From Proteiniphilum acetatigenes DSM 18083 (GTDB lineage: Bacteria; Bacteroidota; Bacteroidia; Bacteroidales; Dysgonomonadaceae), in NCBI RefSeq assembly GCF_000380985.1, contig NZ_KB905695.1:248001-312000 (forward strand): a stretch of 64,000 nucleotides of DNA, given 5' to 3'. The position numbers and the translations under genes were made by a program. Below the pieces are notes generated by a model that was not told where the DNA came from, did no database searches, and saw nothing but the letters and a program-made list of their open reading frames with translations. Numbering within the stretch: position 1 is the first letter of the stretch; each line of letters starts with the position of its first letter. Below, piece by piece: positions 21,600-34,216 of this stretch.

Positions 21600-22193
21600 T
21601 TATTCTTCTTCCAGTTCTTTGATCTCTCCGAGGCTTTTCAGGATCGAATCTATATTCTTTTGGTAAAGCCTTTTATATGACCATGCGGTTATCAGGGACG
21701 CTAAAACAAACATGCACCCCAACAATATCCATAACGAAACACTTACTTTCGCTTCGGCATACGCGGCGACGCAAAGTAAAGCGATGCTGGGCCCGACAAA
21801 TGCCATGATCAGCTTTTCCCTTTTAACCAGAACCGCATATTTATTGGTGTAATAAATATTGTCGCGGATATTTTCCGTAACGTCTATTTTTATTAATTCC
21901 CGAATCTTATATATGTACCATATAGCGGAAACGACGCAAATAATACCCCCATAGATAACTGCAATATCCCCGAACAGTAGTCTTCCTGAGTATTTGTCGA
22001 GCCAATAAACTATGACGGGAATGACCGCAATCAGGATGAAAACCGAAAAAATATCCCAAAGTATTAACCTGTTTAACGTTTTTTCCACTTTTACCTGTAT
22101 CATTTTCAGGATGATAACTTCGTTCAGTGTATTGTTCTCTTTTAACCGTTTGTCTAGCGCAGCCCACGTGTTTTTTAATTCGTCTAATTCCAT
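21600..22193 (-). CDS. membrane protein co-encoded with an ECF sigma factor
   Basis: This 197-residue protein starts with a charged cytosolic segment (MELDELKNTWAALDKRLKENNTLNE), then has two pairs of membrane helices (about residues 43-65, 73-95, 130-148, 152-172) and a charged tail. The opening WxxLxxRL pattern resembles short Bacteroidetes proteins encoded after ECF sigma factors. It lacks a recognisable zinc anti-sigma motif. Its position 14 bases after the sigma gene suggests it controls that sigma factor, but this is inference. Confidence 0.7.
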   Translation of the reverse strand: MELDELKNTWAALDKRLKENNTLNEVIILKMIQVKVEKTLNRLILWDIFSVFILIAVIPVIVYWLDKYSGRLLFGDIAVIYGGIICVVSAIWYIYKIRELIKIDVTENIRDNIYYTNKYAVLVKREKLIMAFVGPSIALLCVAAYAEAKVSVSLWILLGCMFVLASLITAWSYKRLYQKNIDSILKSLGEIKELEEE

Positions 22194-22207
22194 AATTCCT
22201 GTTTTTT

Positions 22208-22699
22208 TTAGAGGTGTGACATTTCTCTGAGTTTCTCTTTTGCACGTTTCAGCTTTGTGGCCACATTACTTAATGTCAAGCCGGTGATGTCGGCGATTTC
22301 CTGATAGGATTTTTCTTCGAGATAAAGGAGGACAACCACTTTTTCGAGTGTTTTCAACCGGTTGATCAGCAGGTACATTTCACGGATATTTTCGTTCAGG
22401 CTGTCCTGTTCGATAAACCAATCGGATAAATCTTCGATAGGGTAATCGCTTTTCGGGCGTTTCTTCTCCTTGCGTATACCCGAGATACAGGTGTTCAAGG
22501 CAACCCGGTAAATCCATGTTCCGGGAGAACTTTCATTCCTGAATTTCGGGAAACCGCGCCACAAGTTACAAACCACTTCCTGATACAGATCGGCAAGGGG
22601 AAAGGTGTCCGAAACATAGAAAGAGCAGACTTTATAGATGATCCGTTCGTGTTCCTGAACGATTTTTACAAAGGCATGCTCTTTTTTATTTCCCTCCAT
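22208..22699 (-). CDS. ECF-type RNA polymerase sigma factor
   Basis: A 163-residue sigma-70 family protein. Region 2 has PLADLYQEVVCNLWRGFPKF and GTWIYRVALNTCISGIRKEKKRP. Region 4 has LKTLEKVVVLLYLEEKSYQEIADITGLTLSNVATKLKRAKEKL with its helix-turn-helix. Length and domain order fit ECF sigma factors with no extra C-terminal domain. The next gene downstream encodes a membrane protein, a likely partner. The gap to 22941 shows no consensus -7 box, which would fit an autoregulated promoter. Confidence 0.9.
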   Translation of the reverse strand: MEGNKKEHAFVKIVQEHERIIYKVCSFYVSDTFPLADLYQEVVCNLWRGFPKFRNESSPGTWIYRVALNTCISGIRKEKKRPKSDYPIEDLSDWFIEQDSLNENIREMYLLINRLKTLEKVVVLLYLEEKSYQEIADITGLTLSNVATKLKRAKEKLREMSHL

Positions 22700-22941
22700 T
22701 ATCTTCTTTTTCTATATTAGACGCAATATATCCGGAAAAATGGCAAAATAAACAACTTTTTTTATTAAAATAATTACCCATCTCCGAAATCTTTTTATAA
22801 TTTTGTCCTGCATGTATTCGTGGATGTTTGGTGTTATATATTGATTAATACGTTGAAATATAGTGATTTAACCGATATATGTGCCTTTTATTTGAAAATT
22901 TCAGGTAAACGTTAATATATACGACACTTATACCATTTATT

Positions 22942-23967
22942 ATGAGGAAAAATATAAAGCAACCATCATTTTTCAGCGAACTAAAGAAATGGGTAATACC
23001 AGCAATATTTATCATTCCGGCATTACTCGTTTTGTCGTCCTGTACTGATGGGGCAAAACCGTTTAATCTTGTCTTATTGCCGGACACGCAAGTGTATTCC
23101 CGTTTATATCCTGAAATATTCCGTTCGCAAACCGAATGGATCGTTCAAAATGCTGATAGTATCGCTTTTGTCCTTCAACAGGGAGATATTACCGATCACA
23201 ACTCCGAGGAGGAATGGCAGAACGCTGTCGCAGCTTTCTCTGTAATGGACGGTAAAGTGCCATATACGTTTGTGCCGGGTAACCATGACCTGGGACCGGG
23301 AGGTAGTGCCAGTAACCGGGACGCAGAACTTTTCAACAAATACTTACCCTACGACCGGTATAGTAAAATGGCACATTTCGGCGGGGCCTTTGAACCCGGA
23401 AAGATGGAAAATACCTACCATACTTTTCGTGCCGGCGGATTGGATTGGTTGATCCTTTCGCTCGAATTTGGTACACGCGATAAAATATTGCGTTGGGCGG
23501 GTGAAGTGATTGAGGCACATCCCAAACATAAGGTCATTATTAATACCCACGATTATATGTATTCGGATGATACCCGTATGAGTATCGATCGGGATCATTC
23601 CTGGGTACCACAACGATATGGTGTGGGCAAAGACACAGGCGACGAGTCCGTCAACGATGGCGAAATGATGTGGGAGAAGCTGGTGAGCCGGTATCCCAAT
23701 GTATTATTGGTATTCAGCGGACATGTACTCCATAGTGGTACGGGGCAGTTGGTGAGCACCGGAATGCATGGCAATGATGTGTACCAGATGCTGGCCAATT
23801 ACCAGTCGGGAGTAGAAGGTTCTGAAAATGGCGGAAATGGATTTCTTCGGATCATTACCATTGATCCTGAAAATAAAACAATATCCGTAAAAACTTACTC
23901 TCCGTACATAAACGAATACAAGACAGAACCAGACCAACAGTTTGTTTTTGAAAATGTTGAGTTCTGA
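22942..23967 (+). CDS. metallophosphoesterase, probable lipoprotein
   Basis: The 341-residue exported protein begins with a long basic stretch and a hydrophobic segment ending LVLSSC, a good lipobox, so it is probably membrane-anchored. The calcineurin-like phosphoesterase motifs follow in order: LPDTQVY (metal Asp), QQGDITDH, PGNHD, and later NTHDYMY and FSGHVLHSG. All metal ligands seem present. The substrate is unknown; relatives act on phosphate esters outside the cytoplasm. It converges with the histidine operon. Confidence 0.88.
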   Translation: MRKNIKQPSFFSELKKWVIPAIFIIPALLVLSSCTDGAKPFNLVLLPDTQVYSRLYPEIFRSQTEWIVQNADSIAFVLQQGDITDHNSEEEWQNAVAAFSVMDGKVPYTFVPGNHDLGPGGSASNRDAELFNKYLPYDRYSKMAHFGGAFEPGKMENTYHTFRAGGLDWLILSLEFGTRDKILRWAGEVIEAHPKHKVIINTHDYMYSDDTRMSIDRDHSWVPQRYGVGKDTGDESVNDGEMMWEKLVSRYPNVLLVFSGHVLHSGTGQLVSTGMHGNDVYQMLANYQSGVEGSENGGNGFLRIITIDPENKTISVKTYSPYINEYKTEPDQQFVFENVEF

Positions 23968-23991
23968 TGTAGGATCGTCCGGGGTTTTTAA

Positions 23992-24579
23992 CTATTTATG
24001 CCTCTCAACCAATATGGCTTCAATATCTTCCAGTTTCAGTTTTTTTGTTTTTAACAGGATCAGGAAGTGGTAGAGCAGGTCAGCAGCTTCATTTTTGAAC
24101 AGATCGATATTGTTGTCTTTCGCTTCGATTACCAACTCGACGGCTTCTTCTCCTACCTTCTGCGCCACTTTGTTTACACCACGGCTGAACAGCTTTGAAG
24201 TATATGAGCCTTCCGGATTTTCGGTGATCCGCTTCTCTATCACATTTTCCAGTTCATAGAGAAATCCTTTCGATTGTTTATCGCCGAAACAGGATGTGGA
24301 ACCGGTATGGCAGGCTGGCCCCTGCGGATAGGCCTTGATAAGGATGGTATCATTGTCGCAATCCGTCAGGATCTCGTCCACAACCAACCAATTGCCCGAT
24401 GTTTCCCCTTTTGTCCAAAGGCGGTTCTTACTTCTGCTGAAAAAAGTCACCTTTCCTTCTTTCTGTGTTCTCTCCAACGCTTCTTCATTCATATAGCCGA
24501 CCATCAATACCTGTAAGCTGAGCGTATCCTGAATGACGGCAGGAACTAATCCTCCCGATTTTGAAAAATCGATATTCAT
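23992..24579 (-). CDS. hisIE: bifunctional phosphoribosyl-AMP cyclohydrolase / phosphoribosyl-ATP pyrophosphatase
   Basis: A 195-residue enzyme for steps 2 and 3 of histidine synthesis. The HisI half (1-105) carries [23 protein letters not shown] and the zinc/magnesium motif [25 protein letters not shown]. The HisE half (115-195) has [29 protein letters not shown]. The start codon overlaps the hisF stop by four bases (ATGA type), so translation is probably coupled. It is the last gene of the operon. Confidence 0.96.
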
Positions 24580-25328
24580 CGTATGGGTATATTTTGAGTT
24601 TTTAAATAATCTTTGAGTGTAGGGATAGAAATCTCCCTGAAATGAAAAATACTGGCCGCCAGTGCCGCACTTGCTTTCGTTTGTGTAAATACTTCAGAAA
24701 AATGTTCAAGGGTTCCGGCGCCGCCTGAAGCGATCACCGGGATGCGTACCGCTTCGCTGACAGCAATTGTAATGTCGATAGCAAAACCATCCTTCGTACC
24801 ATCGTTATTCATCGAGGTAAGCAGTATCTCCCCTGCGCCACGGTGTTCGCCTTCCTTTGCCCAGTCGACGGTACGGAGATCTGTCGGCGTTTTACCCCCA
24901 TGGGTATATACGATCCATTCATTATTTTCGAAATTAGTATCAATAGCAAGTACTACACACTGACTTCCAAATTGCCCGGCAATTTCGGTGATCAGTTTCG
25001 GTCGCTTGACAGCTGCAGAGTTCAGACTGACTTTATCGGCCCCGGCCTGGATAATGGCGCGTGCATCGTCTAACGAATGGATACCTCCCCCTACGGTAAA
25101 CGGGATATTGATCTCCTGTGCAACACGCGTGACCAGTTCCGTGAGCGTTTTACGCCTCTCGATAGTAGCGGTGATGTCTAAAAAGACCAATTCATCCGCA
25201 CCTTCCTGCACATATCGCTTGGCGAGTTCCACCGCATCGCCTGCATCGCGGATATCCACGAAATTGACCCCTTTGACGGTACGTCCGTCCCTGATATCAA
25301 GACAGGGGATGATTCTTTTTTTCAGCAT
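24576..25328 (-). CDS. hisF: imidazole glycerol phosphate synthase cyclase subunit
   Basis: A 250-residue TIM-barrel subunit that partners HisH. It begins [23 protein letters not shown] with the catalytic Asp (CLDI). The second catalytic Asp lies in VVLAIDTNF, and the phosphate loops GGGI and ASGGAG are present. The gap of 90 bases to hisA upstream is filled with repeat text. Confidence 0.97.
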
Positions 25329-25331
25329 AAC

Positions 25332-25418
25332 TTTTTAATTCAAGATTCAAGATTCCAAATTTAAAATTATGAAATCATCAAATTCTCCACTTCCAAATAT
25401 TAACTCATAATTCATAAT
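25332..25418. repeat. low-complexity repeat text in the hisA-hisF gap
   Basis: Direct repeats of AATTCAAGATTCAAGATTCC and AATTCATAATTCATAATTT type occupy the gap inside the operon. No gene is seen. Confidence 0.5.
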
Positions 25419-26141
25419 TCATAATTTTTCTACGAACTCCCGCAATTCACGAAGAGTGATCTTTCCTTCGTAGAACGCTTTTCCTATGATTGCTCCGTCG
25501 CAACCAAGCTGCTTCAATACCTGCAGATCGTCGATTGAAGAAACACCTCCACTGGCAATCAGTTTTACACCGGTTTTTTCGATAATCTCGCGGTATAATT
25601 CGTTGGATGTACCCTGTAGCATGCCGTCTTTCTGAATATCGGTACAGATGACATACACGATACCTTTCTTTGCGTAATCCGAAATAAAAGCGACTACCTC
25701 CAGTTCCGATTGTTGCATCCAACCGTGTGTCGCTATTTTCCGATTGTTGCTGTCGGCGCCAAGAATAATCTTTTCCGATCCGTATGTGCCGAGCCATTGC
25801 CGGAAAGTATCAGGTTGCTGTACCGCGATGCTTCCACCGGTAATTTGTGACGCTCCATTCTCGAAAGCAATACGAATGTCTTCATCTGATTTGATGCCAC
25901 CGCCAAAATCAACTCTCAACGAGGTTTTCGAGGCGATATCGTGTAAAATCTTATGATTGACAATATGCTTCGAGCGAGCGCCGTCGAGATCCACCACATG
26001 CAGGTATTGTATACCGTTCGCTTCAAATTCTTTGGCTACTTCGAACGGATCGTCGTTATATATTTTCTGTGTATTATAATCGCCTTTAGTGAGGCGTACA
26101 CACTTACCGCCGATAATATCTATGGCCGGAATAATTCTCAT
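25419..26141 (-). CDS. hisA: phosphoribosylformimino-5-aminoimidazole carboxamide ribotide isomerase
   Basis: The 240-residue TIM-barrel isomerase makes the substrate of HisHF. The N-terminal [19 protein letters not shown] has the catalytic Asp, and DFGGGI and ASGGVSS are the two phosphate loops. The second Asp is in the segment [12 protein letters not shown]. Length is standard. Confidence 0.96.
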
Positions 26142-26286
26142 TTTTTGATTGAGTTAGATCATTTATTTGTAAAAGCAATCATAAGTATGCTGCAGACTTT
26201 TCCAGGACAATATGCACATATCTGTTTCTGACTTCTTTTTTCACACTGGCACATTGATTCACATTATTCATATTGGCATATTAGCA

Positions 26287-26865
26287 TTATAGGTCCAGAA
26301 AATTCCTCAGGATCTTTTCGCCCACGTCACCCGATTTTTCAGGATGAAACTGTGTGGCATAAAAATTGTCTTTTTGCATTGCGGCGCTGAACGGCAAGAT
26401 ATAGTCACAGCGGGCAATAGTTTCGGAACATATTTCTGCATAATAGCTGTGCACGAAATAAACAGCATCATCTTTACCGAAACCGTTGAAAAGTGGATTA
26501 ACCTCGACCTCCAGATTGTTCCACCCCATATGTGGGACAATATCTGTTGCAGGGAATTTTTTCACTTTCGCATCGAAGATGCCAAGGCACTTTGTATCAC
26601 CCTCTTCCGAATGCCGGCACATCAGTTGAAGCCCAAGGCAAACACCCAGTGTGGGTTGAACTAAAGATTGAATAATTTTATCTAATCCTTTACTCTCCAG
26701 GTGATTCATTGCTGATTTTGCTTCTCCCACACCCGGGAAAATAACTTTTTCAGCAGATAGAACTTCATCAATATCATCGGTCACCTTACACTCATAACCC
26801 AGCCGTTCGACCGCATTTTTGACCGATGTGATATTGCCAGCGTTGTATTTGATTATTGCTATCAT
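26287..26865 (-). CDS. hisH: imidazole glycerol phosphate synthase glutaminase subunit
   Basis: The 192-residue class I glutamine amidotransferase supplies ammonia to HisF. The nucleophile Cys is in LGVCLGLQLM, and the His-Glu pair in ATQFHPEKSG near the C-terminus. The start IAIIKYNAGNITSVKNAVERLG is the family opening. It is separated from hisA by a 145-base gap and from hisB by 140 bases, both with repeat text. Confidence 0.96.
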   Translation of the reverse strand: MIAIIKYNAGNITSVKNAVERLGYECKVTDDIDEVLSAEKVIFPGVGEAKSAMNHLESKGLDKIIQSLVQPTLGVCLGLQLMCRHSEEGDTKCLGIFDAKVKKFPATDIVPHMGWNNLEVEVNPLFNGFGKDDAVYFVHSYYAEICSETIARCDYILPFSAAMQKDNFYATQFHPEKSGDVGEKILRNFLDL

Positions 26866-27005
26866 TGTTGAATTATTTCAAATTCAAAATTCCAGATTCA
26901 AAATTTATATTATTATGATTTATTAATTTATTATATTGATTTTGACTCCACCGAACGTTGATTCAATTCAGATTTCATCATCACATCAACAAATCATCAC
27001 ATCAA
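26866..27005. repeat. low-complexity repeat text in the hisB-hisH gap
   Basis: TTCAAATTCAAAATTCCAG words, then TCATCATCACATCAACAAATC words, fill the 140-base gap. The same CACATCA vocabulary recurs at 30711-30746 before hisD. Confidence 0.5.
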
Positions 27006-28094
27006 CTACAGTGTTCCTTTCGTACTGGGTATACCTTCTGTTCCATCTCGCTTTACTGCCATCTTTATTGCCCGGGCAAAGGCTTTAAAGATAGATTCGA
27101 TCTTGTGATGCTCATTGTCGCCTTCCGCTTTAATATTGAGATTGCAGCGGGCGTTGTCACTGAACGATTTGAAGAAGTGCATGAACATTTCTGTGGGAAG
27201 ATCACCTACGAATTCGCGTTTAAATTCCGCTTCCCATACTAACCAGGGGCGTCCTCCGAAATCAATAGCCACTTGTGCCAGGCAATCATCCATCGGTAAC
27301 AGGAAACCATACCGTTCCACTCCCTTCTTTTTGCCCAGCGCCTGTATAAAAGCTTCTCCCAGGGCGATTCCCGTATCTTCTACCGTGTGATGCTCATCCA
27401 CCTGCAGATCACCTTTGACGCGAATGGTAAGGTCGATATTGCCGTGGCGGGAGATCTGGTGAAGCATATGGTCGAAGAATCCCAATCCGGTTGAGATATC
27501 GCTTTTCCCTTTGCCGTCAAGGTTCACCTCGACGAAGATGTCGGTCTCGGAAGTCTTTCTGTGTACTTTCCCTCTGCGTGGCTCCTCTTTCAGAAACTGA
27601 TAGATCTCTCCCCAGTCTGTAGTACACAGTGTGACTCCCGGATATGAATTATTATTCAGTAAAATAGATTTACAATTCATATTTTCAGCAAGTTGTACAT
27701 CTGTTATCCGGTCTCCTATTACATAAGAATGCTCCAGATCGTATACTCCTCTCATATAATGGGTGAGCATACCGATACCGGGCTTTCGGGTAGGTAGGTT
27801 TTCGTGGGGAAAAGATCGGTCGATCAGTACTTCACTGAAATGTACTCCCTCATTTTCAAAAGCCTTGATGACTTTGTTCTGTACCGGCCAGAAAGTCTCT
27901 TCGGGAAATGAGGGAGTACCCAACCCGTCCTGGTTGGTAACCATCACCAATTCGTATTCCAATTCGCCGGCAATACGGGAGAGGTTCCGGAATACCTTCG
28001 GATAAAATTCCAGTTTTTCCAGGCTGTCGATCTGTTCATCCTCAGGTTCTATGATCAACGTCCCGTCACGGTCGATAAATAATACTTTTTTCAT
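27006..28094 (-). CDS. hisB: bifunctional histidinol-phosphatase / imidazoleglycerol-phosphate dehydratase
   Basis: A 362-residue fusion like that of E. coli. The N-terminal HAD phosphatase (1-165) starts [11 protein letters not shown] (nucleophile Asp) and has [10 protein letters not shown] and the acidic motif [11 protein letters not shown]. The dehydratase half (about 175-362) has the two metal-binding repeats [13 protein letters not shown] and [15 protein letters not shown], and near the end [10 protein letters not shown]. Both activities look intact. Confidence 0.97.
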
Positions 28095-28107
28095 ATATTT
28101 TGCACTA

Positions 28108-28221
28108 AGAAGTTTAGAAATTAGAAGTCAAGAAGTCCAAGAAGTCAAGAAGGGGAGAAATTTAGAAGTCCGCAGCAACGAAAACAACAATTAGTAATTA
28201 GTAATTGATAATTCTCCATTC
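28108..28221. repeat. low-complexity repeat text in the hisC-hisB gap
   Basis: Tandem variants of GAAGTCCAAGAAGTCAAGAAG, then AATTAGTAATTAGTAATTG words, fill the gap. The core word also appears near 62745. Confidence 0.55.
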
Positions 28222-29238
28222 TTAATTATAATTTTTCAATTCGTTTATCAGCATCCGGTTTTCTTCCGGTGTACCGACTGTGATACGGAGACAATTGCGG
28301 ATGACAGTACTACGATTTCTGACAATCACCTTTTTCCCGACCAGATATCGATAGATCGCATTGGCTTCCGTCACTTCTACCAGCAGGAAATTGGCATCGG
28401 AAGGATAGACATGATGTACCATGGACAAACCTTTCAACTCTTTTTCCAGCAATGTACGTTGCTCCAGAATGATGGAGAGTTGCCGCTCAAATTCAAGAGG
28501 ATTAGATAACGCTCTGAGCGCTTCTGCCTGATTCAGTGAACTTACATTGTAGGGAGGTTTTGTTTTGTCCATCAATGTGATGATGTCAGCGCTTGCATAG
28601 GCTACACCTACACGTGCCCCAGCCAATCCCCATGCTTTACTGAAAGTCTGCATCACAATCAGATTGGGATAATCGGGTAATTTTTCGAGAAAGCTGTTGC
28701 CGCCACTGAAGTCGATATAGGCCTCATCGACTACCACGATCCCGCAGAACTCCTGAAGCAGTCGTTCTACATTTTGAAGACTGTTCCCTGTAGGATTATT
28801 TGGAGAGCAGACGAAGATACATTGTGCCTGAAGAGATAGTATTTTATCGATGTCTAATTTGAATTGATCGGTCAGCGGCACCCGGAGCACTTCCACGTTG
28901 TTGATATTGGCTGATACCTCATACATACCGTAAGTAGGGGGACAGATGATTACACGATCCTGTTGCGGTTCGCAGAAGATACGGTAAATCAGGTCGATTG
29001 CCTCATCGCTTCCGTTCCCGATGAAGATGTTCTCCACCGGGATCTGTTTTCTTTCGGAGAGGGCTTTTTTTAGCAGGCGCTGATGAGGGTCGGGGTAACG
29101 ATTCCTTTGTCCGAACGGATTTTCGTTAGCATCGAGGAAGATACCTTCATCACCCGTGAATTCATCTCGTGCACTGGAGTAGGGGTGTAATGCCCGGATA
29201 TTGGGGCGTACCAGCGATTCCAGATCAAATTTCTCCAT
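28222..29238 (-). CDS. hisC: histidinol-phosphate aminotransferase
   Basis: A 338-residue PLP-dependent class I/II aminotransferase. It has the substrate segment LDANENPFG, the cofactor region GNGSDEAIDL, SPNNPTGN, VVDEAYIDFSG and the PLP lysine in TFSKAWGLAGARVG near residue 200. The start overlaps the end of hisD by 14 bases, so translation is probably coupled. Confidence 0.97.
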   Translation of the reverse strand: MEKFDLESLVRPNIRALHPYSSARDEFTGDEGIFLDANENPFGQRNRYPDPHQRLLKKALSERKQIPVENIFIGNGSDEAIDLIYRIFCEPQQDRVIICPPTYGMYEVSANINNVEVLRVPLTDQFKLDIDKILSLQAQCIFVCSPNNPTGNSLQNVERLLQEFCGIVVVDEAYIDFSGGNSFLEKLPDYPNLIVMQTFSKAWGLAGARVGVAYASADIITLMDKTKPPYNVSSLNQAEALRALSNPLEFERQLSIILEQRTLLEKELKGLSMVHHVYPSDANFLLVEVTEANAIYRYLVGKKVIVRNRSTVIRNCLRITVGTPEENRMLINELKNYN

Positions 29239-30673
29239 TTTCGTCTTCTTGTTGTTCTTTTTGAGTCAGCTCTTCTGCATCGTACCGCTCTGTTTGTGAT
29301 GATGCTTGAGATTCCTCTTGTTGTATTTGTTGTTCTTGTTCCTGATCTTGCCCTTGCTCCTGCGTGTAACCTGTCATCGCTATCTGCCTTGCCTTTACCG
29401 CTCCCAGACGAAGAGTCATGGCATTCTTGTGGGCAATGAGTTGTTCCTCTTCAGCCATGATCTCCACTGTATTACCGATGCTTATCACTCCCTCCTCGGT
29501 AAGTTGTTGGAAGGTGATCTTTTTAACGAAACTGTCGAGTGATACACCACTGTAAGCCGCTGCATGTCCGCCTGTAGGGAGGGTGTGATTGGTTCCGCTG
29601 GCGTAATCGCCGGCACTCTCACAACTATAATGTCCGAGGAATACGGAACCGGCTGTGGTGACATCCCGGCTTAATAGTACCGGGTTTTCGGTAGCCAGGA
29701 TAAGGTGTTCCGGAGCATAGAAATTACTGAAATCGATACATTCATCCAAATCTTTGAAGAAGATTGCCTTGCTGTTTTTAAGAGCCTGTGATGCAATTTC
29801 TTTCCTTGGCAGGTTTTCCAGTTGGATATCAAGCTCTTTATTGACCGCTTTGATTACCTTTTTATTGTCTGAAAGCAGGATCACCTGGCTATCTGGTCCG
29901 TGTTCGGCTTGTGACAATAGGTCTGCAGCTACGAATGCCGGGTTGGAAGTGTCGTCGGCAATCACCAGAAGTTCACTTGGGCCAGCCGGCATATCGATAG
30001 CCGTACCATAATACTGGGCTGACCGTTTGGCAGCCATTACGTACTGGTTGCCCGGGCCGAATATTTTATCAACCTTTGGAATACTTTCCGTACCGAAAGC
30101 CATTGCTCCGATAGCCTGGATCCCTCCTACAGCAAATATTTTCGTCACTCCCGTCAGTACGGCGGCATAGAGTATGGCAGGATGGATTTTCCCTTCCTCG
30201 TTAGGAGGCGTGCATAATATTATCTCGCTACATCCGGCAATTTTTGCAGGTACCGTGAGCATCAGTACTGTGGAAAAGAGTGGGGCAGTGCCGCCGGGTA
30301 CATAGATACCTATCCGGGAGATTGGACGCGATTCACGCCAGCAGAGCACGCCGGGAGCGGTCTCCACTTTACATATCTCTTCCTGCTGTGAACGGTGAAA
30401 GGTTTCTATATTCTTTCGTGCCAGTCCGATAGCCTGTTTTAGCCGTTCGGGCACTAATCCCGCCGCCTGTTCAATGGTCTCACGATCCACTTCCAATGTC
30501 TCCTGAGCAGGCCAGTCGAATTGACGGCTATAGGTGAGTACTGCCTTATCTCCTTTTCGGTGGATATTGTAAAATATCTTTTCCACAATATTCATCAACT
30601 TCCGCTGCCTGATCATAGGGCGTTCGGCCAGTTTCTTCCTTTTGCTTTGCGAAGGGTTTGAAATCGTTTTCAT
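29225..30673 (-). CDS. hisD: histidinol dehydrogenase with a Gln/Glu-rich C-terminal tail
   Basis: The enzyme oxidises histidinol to histidine in the last two steps. Core motifs are present: YVPGGTAPLFSTVLM, GPGNQYVMAAKR, DMPAGPSELLVIAD, the zinc-site segment LLSQAEHGPDSQ and the catalytic Glu-His in YAPEHLI. The core ends near residue 435. Beyond it lie 47 residues not normal for HisD, with 14 Gln and 12 Glu (starting YTQEQGQDQEQEQQ), encoded by a CAA/GAA-rich stretch at 29228-29368. The tail overlaps the hisC start. Confidence 0.95.
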   Translation of the reverse strand: MKTISNPSQSKRKKLAERPMIRQRKLMNIVEKIFYNIHRKGDKAVLTYSRQFDWPAQETLEVDRETIEQAAGLVPERLKQAIGLARKNIETFHRSQQEEICKVETAPGVLCWRESRPISRIGIYVPGGTAPLFSTVLMLTVPAKIAGCSEIILCTPPNEEGKIHPAILYAAVLTGVTKIFAVGGIQAIGAMAFGTESIPKVDKIFGPGNQYVMAAKRSAQYYGTAIDMPAGPSELLVIADDTSNPAFVAADLLSQAEHGPDSQVILLSDNKKVIKAVNKELDIQLENLPRKEIASQALKNSKAIFFKDLDECIDFSNFYAPEHLILATENPVLLSRDVTTAGSVFLGHYSCESAGDYASGTNHTLPTGGHAAAYSGVSLDSFVKKITFQQLTEEGVISIGNTVEIMAEEEQLIAHKNAMTLRLGAVKARQIAMTGYTQEQGQDQEQEQQIQQEESQASSQTERYDAEELTQKEQQEDENGEI

Positions 30674-30675
30674 TA

Positions 30676-30747
30676 TAACTGATTTATTGATTTACTGATT
30701 TGAAGATCAATTGGCACATCATCACATCATCGAATTATCACATCAAT
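30676..30747. repeat. low-complexity repeat text in the hisG-hisD gap
   Basis: TGATTTATTGATTTACTGATTTG words, then CACATCATCACATCATCG words, fill the gap. No gene is seen. Confidence 0.45.
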
Positions 30748-31605
30748 TCAGAGGATCATCTTCTCAATAGGCACTACAAGGATTCCTTCGGCACCCAGGC
30801 GCTTTAATTCATCGATGATTTCCCAGAAATCGTCGTCATGAATCACGGAGTGGACACTGCTCCAACCTTTGTCGGCCAGCGGAAGGATACTGGGAGAACG
30901 CATGCCGGGTAATAATTTCACAATATCGGGGATGACCTCGTTGGGTGCATTAAGCAAAACGTATTTTTTACCGCGTCCGTTTTTGTAAGCCTTTATACGG
31001 AATAACAACCGCTCCAGCAGTTCGGTTTTGGCAGTCGAAAGGTTTTTGTTACCAATGAGTACAGCCTGGCTTTTGATGATTGCTTCCGCTTCCTTCAACC
31101 CGTTCATGATGAGGGTACTTCCGGTACTTACTATATCGAAGATGGCATCAGCAAGGCCGATTCCGGTAGCAATCTCCACACTTCCCCCCAGTTCTTCAAT
31201 CTTCACATCCATTCCTTTCTCCCGGAAAAATTTTTTCAGTATCCTGGGATAGCTTGTCGCTATTCGTTTACCATTGAAATAATCGAGTCCCGTGTAAACT
31301 TCATCTTTCGGAATGGCGAGAGAAAGGCGACAGTTTCCGAAACCCAGTTTTTCGATCTCTATTACATCCTTTTCTTTTTCCCATACCTCGTTTTGCCCCA
31401 GGATACCGATATCTGCTACGCCTTGTTCTACATATTGCGGGATATCGTCATCCCGCAGAAAGAGGATCTCCATAGGGAAGTTGTGTGCTTCTGTTCTCAG
31501 TTTGCGGTTGCCGTTGGAGACATTGATGCCGCACTCCGTGAGCAGGTCGAGGGATTTTTCGCTTAACCGTCCGCTTTTTTGAATAGCGATTTTAATTTTT
31601 TCCAT
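30748..31605 (-). CDS. hisG: ATP phosphoribosyltransferase (long, HisG-L type)
   Basis: The 285-residue first enzyme of histidine synthesis. The catalytic core includes IAIQKSGRLSEKSLDLL at the start, DIGILGQNEV, and the PRPP loop DIVSTGSTLIMNGLKEAE near residue 160. The last 75 residues form the regulatory ACT-like domain (SPSILPLADKGWSSVHSVI), which marks the long, histidine-feedback-inhibited form with no HisZ partner. It is the first structural gene, 53 bases after the leader terminator. Confidence 0.97.
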   Translation of the reverse strand: MEKIKIAIQKSGRLSEKSLDLLTECGINVSNGNRKLRTEAHNFPMEILFLRDDDIPQYVEQGVADIGILGQNEVWEKEKDVIEIEKLGFGNCRLSLAIPKDEVYTGLDYFNGKRIATSYPRILKKFFREKGMDVKIEELGGSVEIATGIGLADAIFDIVSTGSTLIMNGLKEAEAIIKSQAVLIGNKNLSTAKTELLERLLFRIKAYKNGRGKKYVLLNAPNEVIPDIVKLLPGMRSPSILPLADKGWSSVHSVIHDDDFWEIIDELKRLGAEGILVVPIEKMIL

Positions 31606-31657
31606 TCTTTATTCACTTTACTCAATCGTCCCGGATATGTCCGATTGGATGTTAAAC

Positions 31658-31690
31658 AAAAAACCCGCCTGAGTTCCTTCAGACGGGTTT
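31658..31690 (-). terminator. attenuator terminator of the his operon
   Basis: On the minus strand AAACCCGTCTGA (31690-31679) pairs with TCAGGCGGGTTT (31672-31661) over 12 bases with one G-U, around the loop AGGAAC, and runs into TTTTTT. It lies between the leader ORF and hisG. Confidence 0.93.
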
Positions 31691-31726
31691 ATGCATATAT
31701 GCTTTTTCTGTTCGTACATACCAACC

Positions 31727-31783
31727 TCAACTCGCCTGATTGCAAGTATGAAAATGATGATGATGGAACAAGTTTGCTTTCAT
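31727..31783 (-). CDS. hisL: his operon leader peptide
   Basis: A minus-strand 18-codon ORF, MKANLFHHHHFHTCNQAS, starts at the ATG 31783-31781 and stops at TGA 31729-31727. Five of its 18 codons are His, four in a row plus one two codons later (31748-31765). It lies between a promoter box (31803-31810) and an intrinsic terminator (31658-31690), with hisG after that. This is the arrangement of ribosome-mediated attenuation: scarcity of charged tRNA-His stalls translation on the His run and should favour the antiterminator. The ORF is too short for routine gene calling. Confidence 0.92.
   Translation of the reverse strand: MKANLFHHHHFHTCNQAS
31729..31739 (-). promoter_or_regulatory. antiterminator segment of the his leader
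   Basis: TCAGGCGAGTT, covering the last codons and first stop bases of the leader ORF, can pair with the terminator's 5' arm AACCCGTCTGA at 31679-31689 (10 of 11 positions, one G-U). A ribosome at the stop codon would mask it, while a ribosome stalled on the His codons would leave it free. Confidence 0.8.
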
Positions 31784-31802
31784 TTTTATTATTTTGATGG
31801 GA

Positions 31803-31810
31803 CAAAGATA
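31803..31810 (-). promoter_or_regulatory. -7 promoter box of the his operon
   Basis: The minus strand reads TATCTTTG, fitting TAnnTTTG, with the leader ATG about 20 bases downstream. The upstream TTG is 16 bases away, shorter than the usual spacing. Confidence 0.65.
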
Positions 31811-31860
31811 ATGAAATTATTTAAAACAACCCATAATAAGGAGTATTTTTTAGCAGTACT

Positions 31861-31962
31861 CTATTCTTGATAGGATCTCGATTTTACTTCAGGAAGTTTC
31901 TTGTAATAACTTTTCATCGATTTATAGAAATAATAGGCTCGAATAACAGAATCAGATATCAT
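31861..31962 (-). CDS. possible small ORF overlapping the AraC-type gene's end
   Basis: A 33-codon frame, MISDSVIRAYYFYKSM..., starts at an ATG that overlaps the stop region of the gene before it. It ends at the TAG 31863-31861. The composition is protein-like, but no family is recognised. It could equally be chance. Confidence 0.2.
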   Translation of the reverse strand: MISDSVIRAYYFYKSMKSYYKKLPEVKSRSYQE

Positions 31963-32428
31963 TTGATGATCTGCCTTTTTGAGGTGTAGTACCGAATCTC
32001 TTTTTGTAAACACCTACCAAATGAGATACTGTTTTGAAGTTATACATTCTGGATATTTCAGTAATACTTAAATCGGAGCTGAGTACCAGAGACTGTATCT
32101 CTTCCATTTTGTGGTCCAGCATCCATTGATAGGGTGCTTCGCCGAAATATTTCTTGAAATGGCGTGTAAATGTCCTTAAACAGTCGTAGTGGCACAGTTT
32201 TGCTAGTTCGGACACAGTTTTTGCCGATAAATAGTTCTGTAACACACTATCCTCAAACTGTTTTGATTTTGACGTGCGCGGAATCAACTTTACAAGAACA
32301 ATTTCATTATCGGGTGATGGAGTTACCCTGCTTTTCAGCCCGTCCGAGAAAGTAAATGTACACGATGCCACGTCCGTCAGCAAATATTTGCGTACTTCAT
32401 CTTTTCTTTTTTTTGTGTTAACACTCAT
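31952..32428 (-). CDS. AraC-type helix-turn-helix protein
   Basis: A 158-residue protein whose C-terminal two thirds is an AraC DNA-binding domain: YLSAKTVSELAKLCHYDCLRTFTRHFKKYFGEAPYQW is the first HTH with its bridging segment, and LSITEISRMYNFKTVSHLVGVYKKRFGTTPQ the second. The N-terminal 65 residues are too short for the usual cupin sensor and resemble a small DUF-type domain common in Bacteroidetes. Targets are not evident. It faces away from the TPR/LuxR gene only by distance, as both are on the minus strand. Confidence 0.8.
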   Translation of the reverse strand: MSVNTKKRKDEVRKYLLTDVASCTFTFSDGLKSRVTPSPDNEIVLVKLIPRTSKSKQFEDSVLQNYLSAKTVSELAKLCHYDCLRTFTRHFKKYFGEAPYQWMLDHKMEEIQSLVLSSDLSITEISRMYNFKTVSHLVGVYKKRFGTTPQKGRSSNDI

Positions 32429-32538
32429 ATAATACTTTTAAAAAAGTTTCTGTCTATACTTTCGAATCCGGATGTAATTCAATATTTCTGCATAGAATAA
32501 TATCTTTCCCCTATTTTGTATAAATGGTCTCGCTAAGA

Positions 32539-32558
32539 ACACTAATGTATTTTAGTGT
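32539..32558. repeat. perfect inverted repeat upstream of the AraC-type gene
   Basis: ACACTAA (32539-32545) and TTAGTGT (32552-32558) with a six-base spacer. It lies about 110 bases upstream of the regulator and may be an operator. The remaining part of the gap 32429-32752 holds the AAAAACAGATACCC copy at 32654-32667 and no gene. Confidence 0.4.
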
Positions 32559-32752
32559 ATCGATAAATAACCACAGAGTTCCTGTTTGTGCGTTATAGAA
32601 GAGGTTTTGAAATTAGAGCAGGCAAATATATTCTAAAAAAGAATTTTACTAAAAAAAACAGATACCCATTAGATACCTGTTTTAGCGAAAATATTATCTG
32701 ATTCTTATGTGGAGACGGTTTTTGTGGTTATTAAGCTTTTTGTATGTGCCTG

Positions 32753-34216
32753 TTAAATAACTTCATTCAACCATATAGCTATATCTATGTCGGAGGGGAT
32801 ATCTAATTTTTTGCGCAGGCTGTTTTTTCGGTTTTGGATGGTTTTTACAGAACGATACATACTATCGGCAATTTCTTTGGTTGTAAATTGTAGGTAAATA
32901 AGTGCGCACAGATGCAGTTCGCTCGGTTGTATTTTAGGGTTGATAGCCAGAAGTGAAGTCGTAAACCGGGGGTAAGCCTCCTGGAATTTAATCATGAAGG
33001 TAGGGTCATTTTTTTTAACCAGTTCGATAATTTCATCAAGCGATTTATTCAATCTTATTTTAAGCTTTTCTGTCTCTTGTTCTCTAATCTTGTATATCTC
33101 CATCTCATGTGCTTCTTTTCTTATATATTTTACCTTATATTGCCTCACAAACCACCATGTGAAAATTATTAGAAGCAAGAAAAGAGGGATAATCACTCTC
33201 AGAATAATGAAATATCTTTTCTGCATCTGTGTTTTCTCTTCGTTTGTCAATAGGGTGAGCACTTTTTGGGTAGATTTGAGTTTTTCTTCGTTCAACTGAC
33301 CCTCTATAAGTAATTTCTTATTTTCATATTCATGAGCTGCGGTAGTATCACCCTGTGACGAATAGGCATTGGATATTTTTCCGTAGAGTTCCTTATATTC
33401 TCCTTTTAAACCGGTCTCTTCCAAATTGTCCAGGGCCTTGAAATAGTAGTATAATGCCGAATCGACCTCGTTCTTCTGAAAGTGCATATCTCCCCTATAG
33501 GCCCAGGTCCTTGAATGGTAAGAAAAGGTATATTTTTCTGCTAATTGTATCGCTTTGTCGAAATAAATTCCTGCAGAATCGTATTTTTGCTCTGCTACAT
33601 AGAATTTCCCTATGGTGGTAAATGAATTGATGAGGCTGGTATAGACAAAATCTTCATCCAATTCATTTAAAATCTTCATATTTTTTTGGACATAGAGGAG
33701 GGACGAGTCCGGACGGTCTGTTACGGCGTAGAAATGACTCAGGTTCTCGTAAGTGAGTGCCGTCAGAAACTCCCGTCGTTCGCGTTGTTTTATCTCTTTT
33801 ATATAAGAAAGCCCTTTCAGAAACTCTTTTTTTGCGCTTTCGTATAATCCCATATAGGTATAGATACGGGCTCTTATACGTATAAAATCAGATAATATCT
33901 GGGCATCTCCGTCCGCATATTCTTCACCTAGTAAGATGTATTCCAGAGATTTATTATAACTACCCGTATTGTACAACGCATTACTGATGAGATAATAAAC
34001 CCTTGCTATTCCCTTACGATAACCTACAGATTTAGCCGGATCAAGTGCTTCTAAAGCATACCGGAGGCTGGCTTCCGGATTTATTGCCCGATTGCTTTGG
34101 TAAGACAGTTCGAGAAGGCTGTCCACTTTGCGTACTTCGGTAGCCGGAGGGTCCTTTGGCGAGGAACAACCGGCAATAGCCAATAATGTCGCTGCAAACA
34201 GTATGACTCCTTTCAT
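32753..34216 (-). CDS. TPR-containing membrane regulator with LuxR-type HTH, lipoprotein signal
   Basis: The 487-residue protein starts with a lipoprotein-like signal (LLAIAGC, residues 10-17). Residues 30-315 are TPR-like helical repeats (for example LRYALEALDPAKSVGYRKG and SALYYYFKALDNLEETG). A single transmembrane helix follows at about 332-352 (ILRVIIPLFLLLIIFTWW), then a coiled-coil stretch. The C-terminus is a LuxR-type HTH, TTKEIADSMYRSVKTIQNRKNSLRKKLDIP. Such proteins are a Bacteroidetes class thought to link envelope signals to transcription without a kinase. Two exact copies of AAAAACAGATACCC flank the gene. Confidence 0.8.
   Translation of the reverse strand: MKGVILFAATLLAIAGCSSPKDPPATEVRKVDSLLELSYQSNRAINPEASLRYALEALDPAKSVGYRKGIARVYYLISNALYNTGSYNKSLEYILLGEEYADGDAQILSDFIRIRARIYTYMGLYESAKKEFLKGLSYIKEIKQRERREFLTALTYENLSHFYAVTDRPDSSLLYVQKNMKILNELDEDFVYTSLINSFTTIGKFYVAEQKYDSAGIYFDKAIQLAEKYTFSYHSRTWAYRGDMHFQKNEVDSALYYYFKALDNLEETGLKGEYKELYGKISNAYSSQGDTTAAHEYENKKLLIEGQLNEEKLKSTQKVLTLLTNEEKTQMQKRYFIILRVIIPLFLLLIIFTWWFVRQYKVKYIRKEAHEMEIYKIREQETEKLKIRLNKSLDEIIELVKKNDPTFMIKFQEAYPRFTTSLLAINPKIQPSELHLCALIYLQFTTKEIADSMYRSVKTIQNRKNSLRKKLDIPSDIDIAIWLNEVI

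Follow-up and report, generated by a model that had tools for sequence, protein, structure and literature searches.

The window analyzed here, a 64,000-nt stretch of the genome of Proteiniphilum acetatigenes DSM 18083 (phylum Bacteroidota), carries an eight-gene his operon on its minus strand. Its first gene downstream of the leader is hisG, with an ATG at 31605 (30748-31605, minus; TIGR00070, 200.8 bits for a cut-off of 75.75), and hisD, hisC, a bifunctional hisB, hisH, hisA, hisF, and hisIE occupy 23992-30673 on the same strand, each matching above its curated NCBIfam cut-off. The encoded HisG shares 99% identity with the HisG of Proteiniphilum sp. X52 (locus L031), and the upstream neighbor of the leader (31952-32428) gives AraC-type regulator matches, all below cut-off.

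Direct reading of the sequence upstream of hisG confirmed the parts of an attenuator where a first-pass annotation of this DNA had placed them, all on the minus strand. The promoter box that it had proposed is present as TATCTTTG at 31803-31810, read in the sequence as the -7 box of a Bacteroidota sigma-A promoter; the corresponding TAnnTTTG motif, the consensus of Bacteroidota promoters named in the available text of PMC9723704, is found within 60 nt before the leader ATG for 105 of 174 analyzed leaders versus 12.2 expected from shuffles, at a median distance of 19 nt from that ATG. The hisL leader ORF, MKANLFHHHHFHTCNQAS (31727-31783), runs from an ATG at 31783 to a TGA ending at 31727 and has, as had been claimed, 18 codons with five His codons among them (codons 7-10 and 12); it is backed by the sequence, by relatives, and by a shuffle null. 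A hairpin, ACUUGC/GCGAGU, sits within codons 13-18 of this ORF: its first side, strand 1 (ACUUGC, 31742-31747, codons Thr13-Cys14), has its partner GCGAGU at 31735-31730 of strand 2, as seen by folding and by covariation over 55 leaders. Strand 2, the antiterminator arm TCAGGCGAGTT (31729-31739), stretches over the last codons of the ORF and is identified by ribosome-position folding and pair counts; its pairing at 10 of 11 positions with strand 3, the terminator 5' arm AAACCCGTCTGA (31679-31690; terminator scan, folding, and 3:4 covariation), is as the annotation had it. Strand 4, that is TCAGGCGGGTTT and the following TTT (31658-31672; terminator scan and 3:4 covariation), closes the terminator AAACCCGTCTGA-AGGAAC-TCAGGCGGGTTT (31690-31661), so that the 12-bp terminator with a T tract announced at 31658-31690 is recovered with its 12 pairs, followed by TTTG.

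The comparison of hisG-upstream regions that the first-pass annotation had called for in Bacteroidales was made across the phylum and covered 243 regions including the window's own, with 154 loci in a first set and 89 in a second, the latter drawn from 138 genomes of the phylum with hisG (the window's own locus, L001, not being counted twice). Once L049, L092, and L154, which have less than 300 nt upstream, were left out of the counts, 240 regions remained, no two of them identical, yet with relatives that are not independent; 206 representatives share less than 20% of 12-mers. At least four His in eight codons were found before hisG in 187 of the 240 regions; dinucleotide shuffling, repeated five times, yielded 0-1 of 240, and the reverse strand yielded 2 of 240. 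No other amino acid exceeded 45 of 240 regions at this level. The contrast holds at a threshold of at least five His in eight codons (139/240, versus none in shuffles and none on the reverse strand) and at one of at least three (200/240, versus 8-12 in shuffles and 9 on the reverse strand), a level that lets in some chance matches, as the long ORFs found in f128, f138, and f141 may be. Among the representatives, 168, 155, and 113 have at least three, four, and five His in eight codons, respectively. That the locus merely juxtaposes an unrelated terminator and a fortuitous CAT repeat is a reading that could point to CAY repeats not being rare (34 CAYx4 matches in the own genome) and to terminator-like sites being no commoner than in shuffles (10 sites in 22000-34000 versus a shuffle mean of 10.4). 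However, among the 30 of these 34 CAYx4 loci that were examined, only the his leader has both an ATG ORF of at most 45 codons and a terminator at or below -8 kcal/mol, and the conservation just described (187/240 versus 0-1/240) refutes chance, to which we accord a negligible probability. The his terminator is also the richest in G-C pairs among those 10 sites, with 6 G-C among its 12 pairs.

The distribution of the leaders was then tallied by group, counting ORFs at the three-in-eight level and, among them, those also followed by a terminator at or below -8 kcal/mol. Of the 34 Dysgonomonadaceae-like loci that have 300 nt or more upstream, 33 carry the ORF (33 with the terminator); it was also found in 45 of 45 loci that are mostly Chitinophagaceae or related (L065-L110; 45 with the terminator), in 59 of 72 further genomes of the order (56 with the terminator), in 34 of 34 further genomes of the class (26 with the terminator), and in 29 of 55 genomes of other classes of the phylum (15 with the terminator). 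In the first set, 134 of 137 His-ORF leaders have a T-tract hairpin. No His ORF was detected in the loci sampled from f129, f130, f131, f132, f134, f135, f136, f137, f142, f143, f145, f147, f148, and f152. Of the 26 other-class loci that lack the ORF, 17 show a stop-free stretch of at least 80 codons ending within 90 nt of hisG, so that hisG may be internal to an operon there. Two successive His-rich short ORFs, ending 225-373 nt and then 64-208 nt before hisG, were observed in L004, L010, L111, L141, and L144, and are perhaps tandem attenuators.

What the comparison tells about the leader peptide itself bears on another explanation, under which the His-rich peptide would be functional in its own right, for instance in metal binding, and the terminator would be an ordinary one. 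The motif FHHHHFHTC is indeed kept in most Dysgonomonadaceae-like loci, as such a function would have it, but phylum-wide only the His codons persist while the remainder of the peptide changes; moreover, the Thr-Cys codons and the last codons fall on strands 1 and 2 of the pairing, and changes in strand 2 go along with changes in the terminator. We therefore hold a functional peptide to be very unlikely.

The pairing of strands 2 and 3 was then examined leader by leader in 174 leaders, 26 of the 200 His-ORF loci having been dropped for want of a terminator at or below -8 kcal/mol or because the gap was too short. It reached p<=0.05 against shuffles in 111 of the 174 leaders (92 of 143 representatives) and did not reach this level in the other 63; in an earlier round, 74 of 133 leaders attained the same threshold, and a control region located 5' of the ORF did so in 3 of 133. 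The shuffle test for the 1:2 hairpin is modest in single leaders (38/174, and 30 of 143 representatives). A swap test between loci was weak (33/133 at p<=0.05), probably because many leaders have one of a few common arm types, and a comparison between arm types, run on a randomly chosen quarter of the pairs, was used in its place. Besides the arm type of our locus (type A), a second large type (B) has GCTTACC or GCTTGCC in strand 3 and a GGTAAGC-like strand 2; strand 3 paired with its own strand 2 region reaches -13.6, -15.5, and -13.6 kcal/mol in type A, type B, and "other" leaders, respectively, versus -11.9, -13.6, and -11.0 kcal/mol for the best alternatives among sampled strand 2 regions of any type. 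A third type (C), with strand 3 GGT(T/C)TGC, comprises 12 leaders in which His ORF and terminator are present (L006, L007, L008, L015, L018, L020, L022, L025, L115, L128, L143, and L149) and almost no strand 2 partner is found, the own pairing being of -7.8 kcal/mol and significant at p<=0.05 in 1 of the 12.

Whether the strands change in concert was assessed in two alignments. In the first (A1, 34 close relatives, L049 and L057 left out), the strands hardly vary: helix 1:2 has one both-sided cell and a score of 0.029 versus 0.040 in shuffles, hence no excess, and helix 3:4 has two both-sided cells. Since these close relatives vary too little, a wider alignment (A2) was built from 55 of the 58 leaders of type A, taken from Dysgonomonadaceae-like loci, other Bacteroidales, family f123 of the class, and one genome of another class; L242, L243, and L244, in which no strand 2 was found, were left out, an omission that favors the attenuator reading, and L222 and L226, also without strand 2, were kept. 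In A2, helix 1:2 is paired in 82.4% of cells and shows both-sided changes at 5 of its 6 pairs (18 cells versus 6.9 in shuffles, none of 500 shuffles being as high), and helix 3:4 is paired in 96.7% of cells with 19 both-sided cells versus 4.4. Helix 2:3 is 98.1% paired and has 12 both-sided cells versus 3.3 in shuffles, all at one column pair, and its covariation score of 0.140 is slightly exceeded by that of a +1 slide (0.165). The key column shared by strands 2, 3, and 4 reads G-C-G in 39 of the 55 leaders, A-U-A in 11, and otherwise in 5; as the changed form was seen in f123 and, as far as strands 2 and 3 are concerned, in the order-sample genome L024, few independent events lie behind the 2:3 covariation. 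Judged from these aligned sequences, the arms vary together between lineages.

The leader was also folded, whole and in part. The leader RNA (31799-31656) reaches -41.8 kcal/mol (z = -5.1) in a long hairpin spanning ORF and terminator, and the terminator region alone has a fold z of -5.1 as well. Before the terminator 3' arm exists, the untranslated RNA folds into the ORF hairpin with its ACUUGC/GCGAGU core; between the stop codon and the terminator, only a very small GCA/UGC hairpin folds. We then folded the RNA left exposed at successive ribosome placements, on the assumption that the ribosome covers 16 nt, counted from the P-site codon's first base. When the A site holds one of His codons 7-10, folding gives a 2:3 helix of 10 pairs before strand 4 is made, and at codon 12 one of 8 pairs; a ribosome whose A site is at the stop codon lets 3:4 form instead, by 10 pairs, and an RNA free of ribosomes folds into 1:2 and 3:4. 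For the full-length RNA, the terminator 3:4 is energetically preferred at all ribosome positions tried, stalled positions included, so that antitermination would have to be kinetic.

These folds run against the simplified two-structure form that the first-pass annotation had proposed, with an antiterminator and a terminator alone in competition; under it, the operon would be read through by default in the absence of translation. In favor of such a form, the antiterminator arm extends over the last codons and has the terminator 5' arm as its direct pairing partner, and the third structure, the 1:2 hairpin, has modest support in single leaders and no covariation among close relatives. Nevertheless, this hairpin folds over the same arm and covaries at 5 of 6 pairs over the 55 leaders; the two-structure form is not upheld for this reason, and we consider it unlikely. 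The 1:2 hairpin has a consequence, namely that the operon is expected to be off instead of on when there is no translation; an untranslated leader is indeed predicted by the folding to be off by default.

Taken together, the feature is, with high confidence, a classical ribosome-mediated attenuator of the his operon with segments I-IV, in the scheme described in the available text of PMC1183508. Its parts, geometry, conservation, and covariation are directly observed, and they comprise the elements of a classical attenuator: a run of codons specifying the amino acid that the operon makes, an intrinsic terminator, a 1:2 hairpin over the ORF end, and mutually exclusive 2:3 and 3:4 helices with covariation, this last point being bounded for 2:3 by both-sided change at one A2 pair, by the small number of independent events, and by the 63 of 174 leaders without signal. 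We infer the translation of the leader ORF, the pausing of the polymerase, and the response to histidine. On this model, transcription would start just after TATCTTTG, and a ribosome would start on the leader ORF while the RNA polymerase is nearby, the 1:2 hairpin possibly pausing the polymerase and thereby synchronizing the two machineries. When charged tRNA-His is scarce, the ribosome would stall at His codons 7-12 and block strand 1, strands 2 and 3 would pair before strand 4 is made, no terminator would form, and hisG and the later genes would be transcribed; when His-tRNA is ample, a ribosome at the stop codon would cover strand 2, letting 3:4 form and transcription end; and with no ribosome, 1:2 and 3:4 would form and transcription would end too. 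The claim of a ribosome-mediated his attenuator ahead of the his operon is thus supported by the relatives, which carry conserved His-codon ORFs (187/240), terminators, and co-varying arms. The first-pass annotation had also specified that its proposal would be contradicted by homologous leaders devoid of His codons or by arms whose pairing is not conserved in relatives. Since relatives generally carry all three elements, neither is what we found in general, and the exceptions are 14 of 151 first-set loci in which no His ORF was found, 6 of them with a stop-free stretch of at least 80 codons ending within 90 nt of hisG, and the 12 GGT(T/C)TGC leaders almost without 2:3 signal.

Some lineages display variant arrangements. 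In f140 (13 genomes of another class: L199, L201, L202, L206, L208, L213-L215, and L256-L260), all 13 loci have a His-rich ORF whose end lies 57-83 nt ahead of hisG, no intrinsic terminator was found in these 13, and a single hairpin is seen, of -0.5 kcal/mol. The spacer there counts 218 C and 52 G in 892 nt, versus 138 C and 126 G in the upstream stretch, and C is at least three times as frequent as G in 11 of 13 spacers versus none in the upstream stretch; this C-rich, G-poor composition suggests Rho-dependent attenuation in f140. In f120 of the class (L224, L227, L228, L233, and L240), the His ORF is present in 5 of 5 loci, weak T-tract hairpins (-1.8 to -3.7 kcal/mol) occur in four and none in L228, and an ATCGCC/GGCGAT hairpin lies at the ORF end in 4 of 5. 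In f127 (L196 and L210), the leader ORF ends in HVHHFHHSS or HMLHHFHHSS and no terminator was found in the 102 nt before hisG.

From an evolutionary perspective, we lean slightly toward a view in which his attenuation is ancestral and near-universal in the class Bacteroidia and extends to some sister classes, the phylum's coupling of transcription and translation being tight enough for it and the terminator having been replaced in f140 by a C-rich, G-poor spacer, maybe acting through Rho. Bacteroidota are described as lacking Shine-Dalgarno sequences (available text of PMC7366714 and PMC9723704), and the occurrence of his attenuation in such a phylum would imply that transcription and translation are coupled tightly enough. 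The leaders found in 187 of 240 regions constitute ready reporters for the coupling of ribosome and RNA polymerase in Bacteroidota.

With regard to known regulators, a T-box or another riboswitch that reads histidine directly could be envisaged, since in Firmicutes and Actinobacteria his genes are under T-box control (PMC9413887, in its available text), but no Rfam T-box match was obtained in the window at the gathering score or in the leader at E<=5, and the leader ORF and its arms already explain the region, which makes this explanation extremely unlikely. The name BTnc005 (RF04178), which has a weak Rfam match at the leader, was considered for the terminated his leader and dropped, because no match in 149 genomes reaches its cut-off and the sole match in the own genome lies on another contig, C5. 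The Bacteroid-trp motif (RF01692), a putative attenuator, has one copy in the own genome (C5:186426-186554, L185; 57.1 bits for a gathering score of 49) and no match in the window in the Rfam search; it differs from the his leader in gene, codons, and sequence. That copy carries a 19-residue ORF, MNNSLLNGYWWRYLQLSKS, with two adjacent Trp codons. The motif is listed as cis-regulatory in Bacteroidetes in the available part of Weinberg 2010 (PMC2864571). Leader-peptide attenuation has been suggested for amino-acid operons of Flavobacterium psychrophilum (PMC9723704), the same mechanism as proposed here and in the same phylum, in a paper whose main text, as available, names no his operon and uses the word "histidine" 0 times; small ORFs in 5' UTRs of B. 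thetaiotaomicron have likewise been compared to attenuation leaders (PMC7366714, available text).

As far as their available text goes, a 2010 study (PMC2965389) considered that, with the exception of ermC, leader-peptide systems had been shown in Proteobacteria and Actinobacteria only, and added hisS of Firmicutes, and a 2022 one (PMC9413887), whose scope is Gram-positive bacteria, placed his attenuators in Proteobacteria and some Firmicutes without naming Bacteroidetes. Our literature search, whose coverage leaves out most subscription journals, returned no paper on a Bacteroidota his leader among the matches listed. The novelty we claim is accordingly modest: the mechanism is textbook, and what is new is that Bacteroidota have such a his leader and that it is widely distributed there, a distribution we did not find described among those matches. 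The his attenuators of Firmicutes (PMC9413887) and the hisS/hisZ leaders of Bacillus (PMC2965389) likewise have, in the available text, His-rich leader peptides and a terminator/antiterminator pair, but in another phylum and in few lineages. The enteric His_leader model (RF00514) aligns weakly over its full length with this leader (29 bits, E 0.0081); as 29 bits is below the gathering score of 49, the leader would work like hisL and yet stand outside RF00514. No match above cut-off was found in 99 genomes of the class, taken irrespective of hisG content and searched with stricter filters; weaker matches, counted wherever they lie, occur in 16 of the 99 (best 45.4 bits), and the control gave a match in 2 of 14 genomes, over the cut-off in 1. 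The likeness to enteric hisL resides in the His-codon leader ORF, the mutually exclusive hairpins, and the T-tract terminator before hisG; the differences are that the promoter is of the TAnnTTTG type, unlike that of hisL, and that the enteric leader has an extra hairpin (PMC1183508, available text) where here only the very small GCA/UGC hairpin is found.
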